From: Opitutus sp. GAS368
GTDB lineage: Bacteria > Verrucomicrobiota > Verrucomicrobiia > Chthoniobacterales > Chthoniobacteraceae
Length of the DNA: 38,803 nucleotides
Assembly: GCA_943329925.2 (NCBI GenBank)
Contig: CALQFT020000012.1
Coordinates: forward strand, 1-38,803
Reading direction: 5' to 3'
Shown: positions 10,497 to 17,407 of the stretch, one piece after another
Numbering within the stretch: the stretch's first letter is position 1
Layout: the number at the start of each line of letters is the position of its first letter
Notes under the pieces: model-generated
Databases searched by the model: none
Seen by the model: only the letters and a program-made list of their open reading frames with translations
Told to the model about the DNA's origin: nothing
Made by a program: the position numbers and the translations under genes

Positions 10497-11060
10497 ACTA
10501 AGTGCCATTCGCATCTCTCCCGCAGCGACTTTCCGGGGGTGCAACCCCTGCAGTGTTGTCGCTCATTTTGTGAGCGTAACCCAGGGTAGCCCGCTGCGCG
10601 CAACCTGGGCTGAATCAGCGAACGCCCTTGGCGTTCATTTGGAGCACCTACCGTGCTACCACCAGAGACGCGGGGGACAGACGCTTTCCTTCTCTAGGGT
10701 AGCCCGCTGCGCGCAACCCGGGCTGAATCAGCGAACGCCCTTGGCGTTCATTTGGAGCACCTACCGTGCTGCCAACCCCCACAGCGTTCTCTCTCCACAG
10801 TCTCGGCTGGGCTCACAACGCCAACGGCGTTGCATCATCCAGCCCAGGGTTGGACCGACGCTGGCGGGCCTACCCTGGGTCACCAAAAACACAGCCAACC
10901 CTATAAGGGTTGCATCCGGAAACCCCCTCTCTCCCAATCGCCAGATGAAGGAGACAGGCGCGCTAAAAGCGCCTTAACTAAGTGCCATTCGGGACAGACT
11001 CTTTGCGCCGGAAACTCTATCCATTCAGAGAGACGCGGGGGACAGACACTTTCCTTCTCT
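10495..11060. repeat. Hairpin-rich repeat array
   Basis: This stretch has no credible gene but dense palindromes and direct repeats. A 75-base unit occurs at 10583-10657 and 10696-10770 with one mismatch. A 32-base unit containing CGGGGGACAGAC occurs at 10664-10695 and 11029-11060 with one mismatch. TAACTAAGTGCCATTCG is identical at 10495-10511 and 10975-10991. Short hairpins include GAACGCC-CTT-GGCGTTC (twice), AGCAC-CTACC-GTGCT (twice), CAACGCC-AAC-GGCGTTG, CAACCCT-ATA-AGGGTTG and GGGGTGCAACCCC. This resembles REP-like palindromic repeat clusters mobilised by RAYT-type transposases, but no such transposase is present here. Confidence 0.8.
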
Positions 11061-11116: not shown

Positions 11117-11554
11117 ATGAGCCGAGCAACTCCCCAGATGCGGTACCTTGCCCAACAGATTCTCACCTACGAAGGCGGAGCCAATCCAGCATCCTTGGCG
11201 TCGAACACGCTCCACTTTAATGGGGTCAAGAAGCTCAGCCCCTATTTTGTGGCGCTTCTGGGCGCCTTTTCGTTCCGATTGATCTTGGAACGGGCGCTCG
11301 CCGCGGCCAGCGAAGAAGTCCCGTGGCTGAGCCAGATCTCCATCAATGACGATGACATGCTGCAAGGGTTTGACGGGCCCGGAGTGCCGATCGTGGCGGA
11401 AACCGTTTTGGCAGGATGGACTGTGCTGCTCGCCTGCCTGCTCGAACTGCTGATCACTTTCACCGGCGAAACCATGACGCTTCGCATGCTGCGCGATGTC
11501 TGGCCGCAAGTCTCGAAGAACGATTTGAATCTCCCCCCCCGAAGATCTCCATGA
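11117..11554 (+). CDS. Conserved kaiC-linked protein of unknown function
   Basis: The 145-residue product starts MSRATPQMRYLAQQ; an in-frame upstream start at 10982 would run through the repeat array and is rejected. It has a mainly helical N-terminal part, a hydrophobic amphipathic stretch LSPYFVALLGAFSFRLIL, an acidic middle, and a second hydrophobic stretch LLACLLELLITFTGE followed by MTLRMLRDVWPQV. From memory, proteins ending in similar (L/M)TLR-(R/E/D)VWP motifs sit directly upstream of kaiC-like genes in other bacteria; their role is unknown. The stop overlaps the kaiC start as ATGA (11551-11554), which implies translational coupling and a joint function. Membrane insertion is possible but not compelling. 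Confidence 0.7.
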   Translation: MSRATPQMRYLAQQILTYEGGANPASLASNTLHFNGVKKLSPYFVALLGAFSFRLILERALAAASEEVPWLSQISINDDDMLQGFDGPGVPIVAETVLAGWTVLLACLLELLITFTGETMTLRMLRDVWPQVSKNDLNLPPRRSP

Positions 11555-13119
11555 AAATTCCCCCAGTCACAGCTCCTGCCCATGAGCCGGAAACGGCGGC
11601 AACCGCGCCCGCAAAAATCGTGATCCGCAAGCTGCCCTCGGGCGTGCGCGGGCTTGACGAGATTTTGGGCGGCGGCATCCCCGAGTATTCCTTCAATCTC
11701 ATTGCGGGTATGCCCGGCTGTGGCAAAACCACGATGGCGCATCAGATCGCCTTTGCCACCGGGACGGAATCGCGGCCCGCGCTCTATTTCACCGTGCTCG
11801 GCGAGCCCGCCCTCAAAATGATCCGCTACCAGCAGCAGTTTTCGTTTTACGACCCCTGCAAGATGGGCGCAGCCGTGCGCTTCATCAGCCTGTCCGACAC
11901 GCTGATCGAGCGGGATTTGGATGCGGTGCTCGAGGAAATCGTCCGCCAAGTTAAGGCGCTCCAACCATCCACCGTGTTTGTCGATTCGTTCCGCGCGGTG
12001 GAGCGCGCCGCGCCCCTAACAATTTCCGAAGGCAAAATCCTCACGTTCATCCAGAAGCTCGGCCAGTTTCTGACCAGTTGGGAGGCCACCAGCTTTCTGG
12101 TCGGCGAGTACGACAGAGAAGAGATCCGCGAGCACTCGCTATTCAACGTGGTCGACGGGATTTTCTGGCTATCGCAGGAGGTGGAACGAAATTCGGTGGT
12201 CCGCAAATTGCAAATCGTCAAACTTCGGGGCCAAAAGTCGGTGCCGGGCTTGCACACCATGCGAATCGATGGCGACGGCGTGCAGGCCTTCTCGCGCACG
12301 CTGGGATTGCTCGGCCGACAGGCGGAATCGGCGACGGCGTTCTTGCGAAACAAAATTTCCATTGGTATCCCCAAGTTGGATCAAATGCTCAACGGCGGCG
12401 TCTACGAGGGCGACAGCGTGCTGCTTGCCGGGCCGTCCGGCTGTGGCAAATCCTCCTTGGCTACGCAGTTCATCGGCGAAGGCTTGCGCCAAGGGGAATC
12501 GGCCATCATGGCGATCTTTGAAGAGCGCGTGCAGGGCTACACCAATCGCGCCGACCGCTTCGGCTTGAAATTCGAAGCGTCGATTAATAATGGCAAACTC
12601 GAAGTCCTTTACCTGCGGCTGCTCGATCTATCGGTGGATGAAACGATGCAACAGATTCTCGATGCCATCGACCGGACGGGCGCCAAGCGACTGGTGATCG
12701 ACTCGTTGGGTGGCTTCGAGATGGCACTGGCACCGAGCTTCCGCTCAGACTACCGCGAATCGCTCTATCGAATGATCGGTGTCTTGACGCGGGCCGGAGT
12801 CACCATTCTCAGCACCGTCGAGGTGGAGGACAGCTTCTCGGCGCTGTCGTTCAGCAACTATTCGATCTCGTACCTGACGGACGACATTATCCGCATGCGC
12901 TACGTGGAGATCAGTGGCCAGCTCCGCAAAGTCATGGTCGTGATTAAAATGCGCGGTGGCAATCACAGCAAAGACATCCGCGAATACATCATTACAGACA
13001 AGGGCGTGGAGCTGGTCGCCCCGCGCAAGACCGACTATGCAGCGCTGACGAGCGGATTGCCGACACAAGGCCTCCAGCGTGAGGAGCTCCCGCCGGAGCC
13101 CAAAAGGGATGGCGCCTGA
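11551..13119 (+). CDS. KaiC-family double-domain ATPase
   Basis: Starting at 11551 (ATGA overlap with the upstream gene) the product has 522 residues, the length of circadian KaiC. Both RecA-like domains are present. CI has Walker A GMPGCGKTT at 53-61 and a Walker B-like VFVDSF. CII has Walker A GPSGCGKSS at 294-302 and LVIDSL. The catalytic Glu pair is intact in CII (Glu324-Glu325 in AIFEER), but CI has only one (Gly84-Glu85). At the CII autophosphorylation site the aligned residues are Ser440 and Tyr441, where cyanobacterial KaiC has Ser431 and Thr432. The C-terminal part keeps RYVEISGQLRKVMVVIKMRG and a short tail. No kaiA or kaiB lies in the window, so a signalling or ATPase-timer role outside the classical clock is more likely. 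It is the second gene of a two-gene operon in the island. Confidence 0.9.
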   Translation: MKIPPVTAPAHEPETAATAPAKIVIRKLPSGVRGLDEILGGGIPEYSFNLIAGMPGCGKTTMAHQIAFATGTESRPALYFTVLGEPALKMIRYQQQFSFYDPCKMGAAVRFISLSDTLIERDLDAVLEEIVRQVKALQPSTVFVDSFRAVERAAPLTISEGKILTFIQKLGQFLTSWEATSFLVGEYDREEIREHSLFNVVDGIFWLSQEVERNSVVRKLQIVKLRGQKSVPGLHTMRIDGDGVQAFSRTLGLLGRQAESATAFLRNKISIGIPKLDQMLNGGVYEGDSVLLAGPSGCGKSSLATQFIGEGLRQGESAIMAIFEERVQGYTNRADRFGLKFEASINNGKLEVLYLRLLDLSVDETMQQILDAIDRTGAKRLVIDSLGGFEMALAPSFRSDYRESLYRMIGVLTRAGVTILSTVEVEDSFSALSFSNYSISYLTDDIIRMRYVEISGQLRKVMVVIKMRGGNHSKDIREYIITDKGVELVAPRKTDYAALTSGLPTQGLQREELPPEPKRDGA

Positions 13120-13121
13120 TG

Positions 13122-13420
13122 ACAAAAACGATCGGCACCGAGGCGACGACGGGCGGCTTCGAGGGTGAAGGTATCGGTGATTTCGAGGCCGGAAGGAAGG
13201 TGGCCCGCATCGAGAATTGCTTGCACGGCGGCGGTGGCCATCGCGAACTCGGGGAAAATGGCGGCGCCGAGCATCGCGCGGCTGGCGGGCTTGGGGATCA
13301 GGCGAAGGGTGGCCTCGGTGACGACGCCTAACATCCCTTCGGAACCCATGAAGAGGCCGACGAGATCAAAGCCGGTTTTGTTTAACGTTCCCGCGTCCAG
13401 GCTGAAGAAATCGTGACGGG
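13122..13420 (-). pseudogene. Fragment of glycolate oxidase/D-lactate dehydrogenase-type FAD protein
   Basis: Read on the minus strand, this piece gives FFSLDAGTLNKTGFDLVGLF, then MGSEGMLGVVTEATLRLIP and LPSGLEITDTFTLEAARRR. These are the end of the PCMH-type FAD-binding domain and the start of the C-terminal domain in GlcD-type oxidases. About 95 codons remain of a protein usually near 460-490. Both the N-terminal FAD-binding part and the C-terminal remainder are missing, and the homology stops where kaiC ends. It lies in the same frame as the ATPase remnant at 13446 but is separated from it by two stop codons. It cannot be functional. Confidence 0.8.
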
Positions 13421-13445
13421 GGGCACAAAAAGCAAATGCCTATCC

Positions 13446-13853
13446 TTATCGATCGCCGAGTTCTGCCGCCATATACGGATGGAGGCGCTTCTGGGCGGCT
13501 CGTCCCCCAAGCAGGTTTACACCGGTGCGCCGGAGTTTGCGGGCGCTGGATCGGGTGAGGACAAACTGAATGCCCCGCTTTTCTTCAATGAGCGCATGGA
13601 TCACCTCGAGGAAATGCGGCAGCTTTTGAACCTCGTCGATCAGGACGGTTTTGAGACCTGGGCAGCCCTCGATGCGTTCGCGCAGGCGTTCGGGTTTCGC
13701 TGAGAGCGCGCGCAGGGTGGCGGGGTCGAGAAGATCGATGCGGAGGGCGTTTGAAAAAAGCGTCTGAGTCTAGGAAGTTTTACCGGTGCCTCTGGGACCG
13801 AGGAGGAAAAAATGATCGGCTGGAACAGTCAAAAAACGAGTGATAAATTCCAT
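13446..13853 (-). pseudogene. Truncated DUF4143-type AAA ATPase with an amber codon
   Basis: On the minus strand the frame starts MEFITRFLTVPADHFFLLG and reads Walker A GPRGTGKTS. TAG then falls at codon 28 (13770-13772), where relatives usually carry Trp. It resumes in the same frame with NALRIDLLDPATLRALS, Walker B VLIDEVQKLP, and FVLTRSSARKLRRTGVNLLG. It ends at TAA (13446-13448) after TAAELG-like AELGDR. About 135 codons remain of a family normally near 380-400, so the nuclease-like C-terminal DUF4143 region is lost. It is a dead gene: one nonsense mutation plus a 3' deletion. Confidence 0.82.
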
Positions 13854-15984: not shown

Positions 15985-16016
15985 AAAAGGGACTTCACCT
16001 GACTCACACAAGTCCC
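15985..16016 (-). terminator. Terminator of the GntP-type permease gene
   Basis: Read on the minus strand, GGGACTT pairs with AAGTCCC (16010-16016 with 15989-15995, 14-base loop) and is followed by TTTT. The first arm overlaps the last codons of the permease. Confidence 0.65.
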
Positions 16017-17407
16017 GTCGCATAAAAAACAGCGATCACCAAAAAGACCGCGAACGTCTTAATACAAGTTATCACAAAAATATCACGGTACGCTTCCCGG
16101 TGGGTCAGCCCAGTCACCGCAAGCAGCGTAATGACCGCGCCATTGTGCGGAAGCGTATCCATTCCGCCTGAAGCCATCGAGGCAACTCGGTGCAGAACCT
16201 CCAGCGGAATGCCTGCGCCCTGTGCCGCTGCACAAAAATGTTCAGCCATCGCGGCAAGCGCAATGCCAAGCCCACCGGAAGCGGATCCAGTCAGCCCGGC
16301 AAGCGTGGTGACCGTAACCGCCTCGTTAATGAGGACGTTGGGAATGGTCTTCAAGAAATCCGTAACCATCAAAAACCCAGGCAGCGCAGCAATCACAGCA
16401 CCGAAGCCGTACTCCGACGCGGTGTTCATTGTCGCCAGCAGCGCGCCGGCAATCGCGGTCTTGCTGCCCTCCGAGAAGCGGGGCAACAGAGTCTTCCACG
16501 CCAAAGCGAAAACAGTAACAATCCCCATCAGGAGCGCCCCTTCAATTGCCCAAATCGCAGTCACTGACTTCGTCTGCAGCACAATAGGCTCCGACTTTCC
16601 GGCGACGGCCGATATAAACGACACACTATCGCCATAAAAGGCGGGAATCGCATCGGAAAACACCCGGTTCAGGACCCCGACCACGACAAGCGGCAGCAGG
16701 GCGAGGGCCGGATGCACTAAACCCCCAGCAGGCAACACCGCGGGTTCATTTGAGTGCCCATCCCCATAGCCTTCGCCGGAGCTCAACGCACGTAACCGCA
16801 TGTGCTCAAGGTAGGTAATCCCACAAACCAGAACGAACAGCCCGCCGATACTGCCCAGCCAGGGTGCGGCATAAACGCTGGTTTTAAAAAACGCCGTCGG
16901 AATGATGTTCTGGATCTGTGGGGTACCCGGAAGCGAATCCATCGTGAAAGTAAACGCTCCCAGTGCGATGGTCGCAGGCATCAGGCGCTTGGGAATATTC
17001 CCCTGTCGAAACATCTCCGCAGCAAACGGATAAACCGCAAACACCACAACAAAGAGCGAAACCCCGCCGTACGTCAGCAGCGCGCCTACCAACACAATGG
17101 AGAGCATCGCCCGCCGATTGCCCAAAAAAGAGATCACCGAGGCAACAATCGACTTTGAAAAACCAGACAGCTCGATGACTTTTCCAAAAACAGCTCCCAG
17201 CAGAAAGATGGGAAAGAAGTTTTTCACGAAACCCACCATTCGATCCATGAAGAGGCCGGTGAAAAAGGGGGGCACCTGGGCAGGATGCGAGAGAAGCACC
17301 GCCCCCATGGCAACCAACGGGGCAAACAGGATCACGCTGTAGCCGCGATAGGCTGCGAGCATCAGGAAAACCAGAGCTGATAAAACAATAAGAAAGTCCA
17401 GAGCCAT
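16004..17407 (-). CDS. GntP-family organic acid permease
   Basis: The 467-residue protein is almost entirely hydrophobic, with about 12 predicted membrane segments from FLIVLSALVFLMLAAYRGYS at the N-terminus to the last helix VFLVIAVFYATGLV. It shows features of the gluconate:H+ symporter (GntP) family: the conserved glycine-rich stretch ALLTYGGVSLFVVVFAVYP, PGTPQIQNIIPT, and a C-terminal half with LTGSASGGLGIALAA and SGGMDTLPHNGAVI. Relatives carry gluconate, hydroxybutyrate or other small acids, and the substrate cannot be told here. The gene lies 115 bases downstream of the PAS-AraC regulator on the same strand, so the regulator may control it. The start at 17407 has no Shine-Dalgarno sequence, and a terminator overlaps its end. 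Confidence 0.85.
   Translation of the reverse strand: MALDFLIVLSALVFLMLAAYRGYSVILFAPLVAMGAVLLSHPAQVPPFFTGLFMDRMVGFVKNFFPIFLLGAVFGKVIELSGFSKSIVASVISFLGNRRAMLSIVLVGALLTYGGVSLFVVVFAVYPFAAEMFRQGNIPKRLMPATIALGAFTFTMDSLPGTPQIQNIIPTAFFKTSVYAAPWLGSIGGLFVLVCGITYLEHMRLRALSSGEGYGDGHSNEPAVLPAGGLVHPALALLPLVVVGVLNRVFSDAIPAFYGDSVSFISAVAGKSEPIVLQTKSVTAIWAIEGALLMGIVTVFALAWKTLLPRFSEGSKTAIAGALLATMNTASEYGFGAVIAALPGFLMVTDFLKTIPNVLINEAVTVTTLAGLTGSASGGLGIALAAMAEHFCAAAQGAGIPLEVLHRVASMASGGMDTLPHNGAVITLLAVTGLTHREAYRDIFVITCIKTFAVFLVIAVFYATGLV

Follow-up and report, generated by a model that had tools for sequence, protein, structure and literature searches.

A candidate dedicated partner of KaiC, encoded directly upstream of a distinct KaiC type in many phyla

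The cyanobacterial clock runs on a CI-driven KaiB cycle. KaiC proteins are also widespread outside cyanobacteria, where their function is described as mostly unclear (PMC5520375, PMC11832031). For residues and gene contexts, the relevant background is provided by a 2017 survey (PMC5520375), a myxobacterial study (PMC11832031), and work on the Rhodobacter KaiBC system (PMC10076222), and the first of these includes some KaiC3 homologues that carry a tyrosine at the Thr432 position (PMC5520375). Non-cyanobacterial kaiC contexts were also presented in the Ramlibacter genome paper (PLoS One 2011, PMC3164672), one of them a kaiC that lacks a kaiB neighbor and precedes a gene for a specific kinase, i.e., KaiC–kinase pairs lacking KaiB are already known. 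In the open-access literature, as covered by titles and abstract openings and with subscription papers mostly outside this scope, we found no report naming a KaiC partner such as the one described here.

We analyzed a 38,803-nucleotide stretch of Opitutus sp. GAS368 (contig CALQFT020000012.1, positions 1 to 38,803; hereafter "the window"), in which a double-domain kaiC is directly preceded by a small gene, referred to here as the partner. The features of this locus, all in window coordinates, are:

11117–11554, + strand: partner, 145 aa, mostly alpha-helical, member of an unnamed KaiC-linked family (open reading frame, relatives, family alignments, AlphaFold model)
11551–11554, + strand: ATGA start/stop overlap of partner and kaiC (sequence; recurs in relatives)
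11551–13119, + strand: double-domain KaiC of 522 aa (two PF06745 stretches, E 3.7e-68; top PDB matches are KaiC chains)
11635–12291, + strand: KaiC CI domain (PF06745 match)
11800–11805, + strand: CI catalytic-pair position, Gly84-Glu85 replacing Glu-Glu (residue comparison)
12358–13020, + strand: KaiC CII domain, catalytic Glu pair retained as FEE (PF06745 match, motif)
12868–12873, + strand: CII phosphosite position, Ser440-Tyr441, equivalent to Ser431-Thr432 of cyanobacterial KaiC (aligned to PDB KaiC)
13128–13751, − strand: gene remnants downstream of kaiC (FAD-oxidase piece and AAA_14 ATPase piece)

The partner frame stops at the TGA within the ATGA at 11551–11554, and the ATG of the same four bases starts kaiC; the partner start (ATG, 11117) is backed by an identical MSRATPQ start in homologues from two same-family genomes (L014 and L015). 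Open reading frames and the two PF06745 stretches together confirm what a sequence-only reading of this DNA had described, namely a 145-residue protein joined by an ATGA overlap to a full-length double-domain KaiC, and both RecA-like domains of the latter have a Walker A lysine. Upstream of the partner gene, positions 10570–11060 contain repeated short stretches, with the peptide RRGGQTLSF encoded in two different ORFs, and are perhaps an intergenic repeat element lying over the promoter region. Across the genome (3.8 Mb, 287 contigs, 93.5% complete), the partner is the sole match to its own family profile up to E = 1, and the two stretches of this KaiC are the sole PF06745 matches at E ≤ 0.001. 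KaiA gave no match up to E = 10, and for KaiB nothing exceeded the cut-off in this genome, the best candidates being two short stop-containing pieces (best E 0.34). The absence of kaiA and kaiB first seen in the window hence extends to the whole 93.5%-complete assembly, with neither of these two proteins, by which KaiABC and KaiBC systems are recognized, found elsewhere to act on this KaiC.

Next, we evaluated how often the same gene order occurs around related kaiC genes. The genome_contigs collection was scanned with a KaiC alignment, yielding at least 511 confirmed relatives, and the best 80 of these 511, chosen via two KaiC motifs of the partner-linked clade, were used. According to a partner profile iterated on these loci, the partner lies directly upstream of KaiC in 78 of the 80, and the first round of this profile, based on 11 earlier sequences, gave the same 78. 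The two exceptions, L029 and L089, have KaiC frames that start 110 and 2 bases from the contig end, and among the 78 the partner is partial at the contig start in L097 and divided over two frames in L055. Given this recurrence, the pair layout is more than chance. Phylum labels, taken as in the records and mostly from metagenome bins for which misbinning is possible, place the 80 loci in ten phyla: Acidobacteriota (24), Verrucomicrobiota (20), Pseudomonadota (18), Planctomycetota (8), Myxococcota (3), Bacteroidota (2), and single loci from Fibrobacterota, Nitrospirota, Thermodesulfobacteriota, and Bdellovibrionota, plus one without a phylum label. Named species are included as well, from Sphingomonas, Edaphobacter, Zavarzinella, Limnoglobus, and Polaromonas. 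The partner/kaiC junction was scored in 75 loci: 39 displayed a 4-bp overlap (ATGA, GTGA, or TTGA), a count biased upward since the script picks the start codon closest to the partner stop, another 15 had other overlap lengths, and 21 had none, with a gap of ≤25 bp. The five unscored loci are L029 and L089, along with L066, L076, and L088, which fell under a distance rule and do have the partner upstream.

The same arrangement was detected on plasmids. The window partner as query retrieved a single record, from Paracoccus liaowanqingii, where partner, KaiC, HWE histidine kinase, and response regulator are consecutive, and queries with the partners of L014 and L005 gave no plasmid other than this one. 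A KaiC query led to three places in Caballeronia with a partner-like gene before kaiC, followed in two of them by a diguanylate cyclase gene and showing a broken KaiC frame in the third; a fourth plasmid match, from Cupriavidus at 31% identity, had no partner. Partner and KaiC distances are correlated (r = 0.70, permutation maximum 0.22, n = 81), a pattern that shared ancestry and joint transfer alone can produce, and the partner diverges 2.7 times as much as KaiC, which would fit an adaptor and also weak constraint.

We then considered whether the partner occurs away from kaiC. A single-sequence search with the window partner across 38 related genomes recovered relatives (best E 4e-29), with the partner present in 7 of these genomes, its own counted, and the best match adjoining KaiC in all 7. 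The same sequence used alone against the genome_contigs collection gave 24 pattern matches and no confirmed relative. Phylum-wide scans, each including the center genome, scored 10 to 13 first-look candidates per genome, so that the following counts are lower bounds and copies away from kaiC may be missed: partners were found in 3 of 288 Verrucomicrobiota genomes (the phylum of the window), all 3 adjoining KaiC; in 11 of 297 Acidobacteriota genomes, all 11 with a copy adjoining KaiC, although partner and KaiC share one frame in L192 and the KaiC frame is broken in L197; and in 7 of 398 Pseudomonadota genomes, 4 of which adjoin KaiC and 3 of which are marginal matches (E 2.6e-4 to 9.7e-4). These last three (L156, L157, and L158) showed no KaiC in the 10 kb fetched and were judged chance or unrelated; by motif, we take their sequences to be permease-like and receiver/GGDEF-like. 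The family is thus sparse, occurring in roughly 1 to 4% of genomes across these three phyla. When all candidates were scored in 50 genomes from the 80 loci, 63 partner places were obtained, i.e., the 50 known ones, 6 second copies adjoining them, and 7 more. Among the latter, L139, L142, and L144 precede a KaiC, and two sit at a contig edge beyond which any KaiC would lie (L141). The remaining ones are a second, orphan partner gene without kaiC in Zavarzinella formosa, near kinase-like pieces (L140:5974-6381), and a paralogue some 10 kb from the main locus of its genome and away from kaiC (L143). Orphan partner copies therefore exist but are rare, and the pairing is near-exclusive in the genomes scanned, so that the scenario that would have undone the proposed link, a partner gene as frequent away from kaiC as beside it, does not apply there. 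A second weak match in G009 (L013), with no KaiC adjoining, was discarded as unmatched by the later partner profile. The in-frame partner–KaiC fusion of L192 was likewise set aside as evidence for binding, because the other frame ends at the usual ATGA behind a G run, and a one-base change or error may have fused the frames.

The partner itself is unannotated. The window copy had no match among Pfam, NCBIfam, PADLOC, or PHROGs models, and none of 84 family members matched Pfam; one of the 84 matched the NCBIfam streptophobe model at E 0.001, which was taken as a chance match on a hydrophobic helix. Against PDB sequences, the family profile retrieved two unrelated chains only, up to E 1, and no KaiA or KaiB. 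AlphaFold models of the window partner (mean pLDDT 80.1, pTM 0.75) and of the L031 partner (mean pLDDT 81.5, pTM 0.75) both consist mostly of helices, plus two short strands. The best Foldseek match of either model in PDB was no better than E 1.4, with KaiA and KaiB absent among the 50 matches listed of 82 and of 88 for the two models. As nothing convincing was matched in Pfam, NCBIfam, PHROGs, PADLOC, or PDB, the partner would represent a new family. A first alignment of 11 sequences has six invariant residues in common, and in an 81-row alignment two glycines are invariant and 16 positions nearly so. We also considered and rejected a role in phages or anti-phage defense, with PADLOC matching 0 of 3 partners and PHROGs 0 of 4; PADLOC matches of KaiC were weak (best mad8, 39.4 bits) and located on ATP-binding stretches.

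Downstream of kaiC, 52 of the 80 loci encode the N-terminus of a PAS-type histidine kinase, immediately in 49 and slightly further in 3; it is absent in 28, 6 of which have <1,100 bases after kaiC. A profile of this N-terminus places it immediately downstream in 54 of 89 loci, counting L019 and L052 separately, 49 of these being among the 80. A first downstream frame of ≥200 aa was called by script in 65 of 87 loci, and Pfam assigned HATPase_c to 46 of these frames, PAS_4 to 49, HisKA to 39, HWE_HK to 11, Response_reg to 21, and GGDEF to 5. The cognate kinases have a common N-terminal region followed by a conserved linker near MNEALLLGSVRQHELTEAAE (e.g., L014:8929-9498), and this may be the part that reads KaiC. 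The initial description of a stand-alone KaiC thus holds for the window pair but not for the many relatives that have such a kinase N-terminus.

In the window, gene remnants rather than a kinase come after kaiC: a weak match to the C-terminal piece of an FAD-oxidase (13128–13349, − strand; E 0.0018, under the Pfam cut-off) and an incomplete AAA_14 ATPase piece (13461–13751, − strand), making 13128–13751 a rearranged spot, and the locus shows no output gene. No cognate kinase N-terminus was found by profile in the genome (best E 0.016). Three genomes of the same genus (G001, G006, and G009) do have it after kaiC, and G001 carries the KaiC closest to that of the window on a 52-sequence tree, making loss of the kinase in this lineage the simplest account; the locus of another same-genus genome (G011) is cut at the contig end, and seven further ones have no partner match. 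The window partner also deviates at 13 of the 45 family positions conserved at ≥70%, including Gly52 (Ser) and Gly80 (Asp), which together with the missing kinase suggests that this copy may be drifting. Further downstream, a nucleotidyltransferase-domain gene (PF01909; 14114–14470) is followed by a short, early-stopping frame, presumably a nucleotidyltransferase/HEPN-type pair with a shortened second gene, and positions 16004–17407 encode a 467-aa protein that is hydrophobic and transporter-like and matched no Pfam model at E 0.001.

Taken together, we consider it probable (roughly 0.6) that partner and KaiC form the core of a KaiA-/KaiB-independent signaling module in which the partner is a dedicated regulator or adaptor. 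The position of this small family directly before one KaiC type in many phyla makes such a dedicated role very probable, as read from linkage, and the strict order, the frequent overlap, and the persistence of the pairing even without the kinase suggest that the partner acts on KaiC itself. From this we infer binding between the two proteins, the direction of regulation, and the function of the pair. Translational coupling would produce the partner in step with KaiC; the partner would then probably bind the KaiC ring and set its ATPase activity, the phosphorylation of its single serine, or the way it docks onto an output protein. The KaiC state would be read, in about two thirds of related loci, by a PAS histidine kinase from the next gene, with a shared linker near MNEALLLGSVRQHEL, and output would pass through this kinase, sometimes with a receiver, or through a GGDEF protein in a few loci. 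The window copy would act via an output protein encoded elsewhere, or would have become an orphan core.

Partner-linked KaiCs can also be told apart by their residues. We compared 94 distinct partner-linked KaiCs, after merging the duplicates L019/L052 and L039/L163, with a group of 17 others, of which 15 came from KaiB loci in these genomes; L029 and L089 were excluded from the latter group because they group within the partner clade. Walker A lysines are present at both sites in all 94. The CI catalytic pair is Gly-Glu in 93 of them and Ser-Glu in one (L144), with a glutamate at the first place in 16 of the 17 others, and the CII pair retains its first glutamate in 93 and its second in 86. 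At the Ser431 position, serine is found in 87, alanine in 6, and cysteine in 1. The Thr432 position is occupied by phenylalanine in 93 of the 94, with tyrosine in the window KaiC alone, as opposed to serine (13), threonine (2), tyrosine (1), and methionine (1) in the other group. The window KaiC accordingly lacks the Glu-Glu of clock-type CI domains (Gly84-Glu85) and has that of clock-type CII domains; it carries Ser-Tyr at the phosphosite where most relatives carry Ser-Phe, and Tyr441 (12871–12873) might be a second phosphorylatable residue regained. It also scores far below the NCBIfam cut-offs of clock-type KaiC models (TIGR02655, 150.9 vs 546.25 bits; NF006799, 241.9 vs 408). Overall, the clade is conserved at 105 positions where KaiB-linked KaiC differs, 63 in CI and 42 in CII; these include a stretch around KMLRYQQQ adjacent to the CI catalytic site, where conservation is partly selected since one of the two KaiC search patterns lay there. 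By profile match and by its place directly upstream of a KaiC of this Gly-Glu / Ser-Phe(Tyr) clade, the window partner fits the family definition. In a tree of 52 of 115 KaiC sequences, partner-linked KaiCs, L029 and L089 included, fall on one side of a branch (SH-aLRT 98) and KaiB-linked KaiCs are on one side of another (SH-aLRT 100), although three long branches (L024, L079, and L144) make the deepest joins unsure. Phyla are intermixed within the clade, which along with the plasmid copies suggests horizontal spread.

These residues bear on the suggestion, made in the sequence-only reading, that the partner may replace KaiA/KaiB as an input or output factor. In a timer of this kind, the partner would work on the KaiC tail or on CI and drive a phosphorylation cycle at Ser440. 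This would be consistent with a partner that goes with this KaiC and not with KaiB loci, with a tail motif, which we take to lie near the A-loop, whose Gly and Pro are mostly retained (89 and 91 of 96 rows), and with the one serine site kept in 87 of 94 partner-linked KaiCs. According to work cited in a myxobacterial study, Ser431 as the only site can be enough to give a circadian period (PMC11832031). However, the partner resembles neither KaiA nor KaiB in sequence or predicted fold, and the CI catalytic pair is altered in all 94 partner-linked KaiCs. Replacement is therefore not borne out, a different mechanism being at least as likely given these differences, and we regard such a timer as unlikely. 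Of 50 genomes that carry the pair, 13 have a KaiB scoring over the cut-off and 37 do not, and in all 15 stretches fetched around those KaiBs, a KaiC of another kind adjoins KaiB, without the partner; one such stretch (L163) holds both a KaiB locus and a partner pair about 10 kb away. KaiB, where present, thus appears to belong to another system, and with an altered CI pair and no KaiB, the cyanobacterial CI-driven KaiB cycle would not be operating here.

The partner could also be a membrane anchor, its hydrophobic helix (about residues 94–116) inserting into the membrane and holding KaiC and the kinase there. The best 19-residue Kyte-Doolittle mean is indeed 2.22 in the window partner and >1.6 in 73 of 81 members, but AlphaFold packs this helix within the bundle (pTM 0.75), the stretch after it contains a conserved Glu118 (72%) and Trp129 (93%), and just one such helix is evident, which makes anchoring quite improbable. 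Finally, a KaiC stability or assembly factor, i.e., a co-translational chaperone without a signaling role, would explain why the partner lies upstream of KaiC with frequent overlaps and why the pairing persists where the kinase is absent, yet it is very improbable, as the KaiB-linked KaiCs that occur in the same genomes lack a partner, and as 13 loci carry a duplicated partner with a longer tail, which hints at a role beyond assisting folding. In these loci (L067, L069-L071, L073, L074, L077, and L079-L084; 12 of 13 labelled acidobacterial), a longer partner copy with a C-terminal extension is found upstream of the normal partner. Eleven of the 13 have no kinase N-terminus downstream, one of these with 224 bases after kaiC, and the paralogues look as if a regulator had been duplicated and then specialized.

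We therefore favor a dedicated regulator or adaptor that would bind KaiC and set the nucleotide or phosphoserine state of CII, or its docking, with the PAS kinase, receiver, or GGDEF protein as the predicted output. More tentatively, the partner may be a third kind of KaiC regulator, with an unmatched fold, in a widespread and horizontally spread switch or timer, mostly of bacteria from soil and freshwater, that has altered CI catalysis and signals through a single CII serine. A dedicated, unannotated partner in loci of ten labelled phyla offers a concrete handle on KaiC outside cyanobacteria, and with a residue signature separating partner-linked from KaiB-linked KaiC, the role of KaiC without KaiA and KaiB becomes directly testable.

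Compared with described systems, the window KaiC has in common with cyanobacterial KaiABC (BMC Evol Biol 2017, PMC5520375) two PF06745 domains, both Walker A lysines, the CII glutamate pair, and a serine at the Ser431 position, and differs in the KaiA and KaiB not found in its genome, the Gly-Glu CI pair, and the tyrosine at the Thr432 position. The Rhodobacter sphaeroides KaiBC hourglass (Nature 2023, PMC10076222) likewise relies on a double-domain KaiC working without KaiA; that system, however, uses KaiB and has two Ser sites as well as a coiled coil of about 50 residues at the C-terminus, whereas the window genome has no detected KaiB and its KaiC has Ser-Tyr at these sites. At the Rta_04330/Rta_04340 locus of Ramlibacter tataouinensis, kaiC is likewise without kaiB and precedes a kinase gene whose product has a characteristic N-terminal domain (PMC3164672). 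The legend of Figure S6 of that paper lists SY, TY, and SF as phosphosite types; the section on kaiC contexts describes no small upstream gene, but the figure key includes "HP, Hypothetical Protein", so that the small gene may be drawn there (PMC3164672). The Ramlibacter kinase N-terminus was likened to KaiB/SasA (PMC3164672), whereas the kinases of the partner loci match PAS domains.
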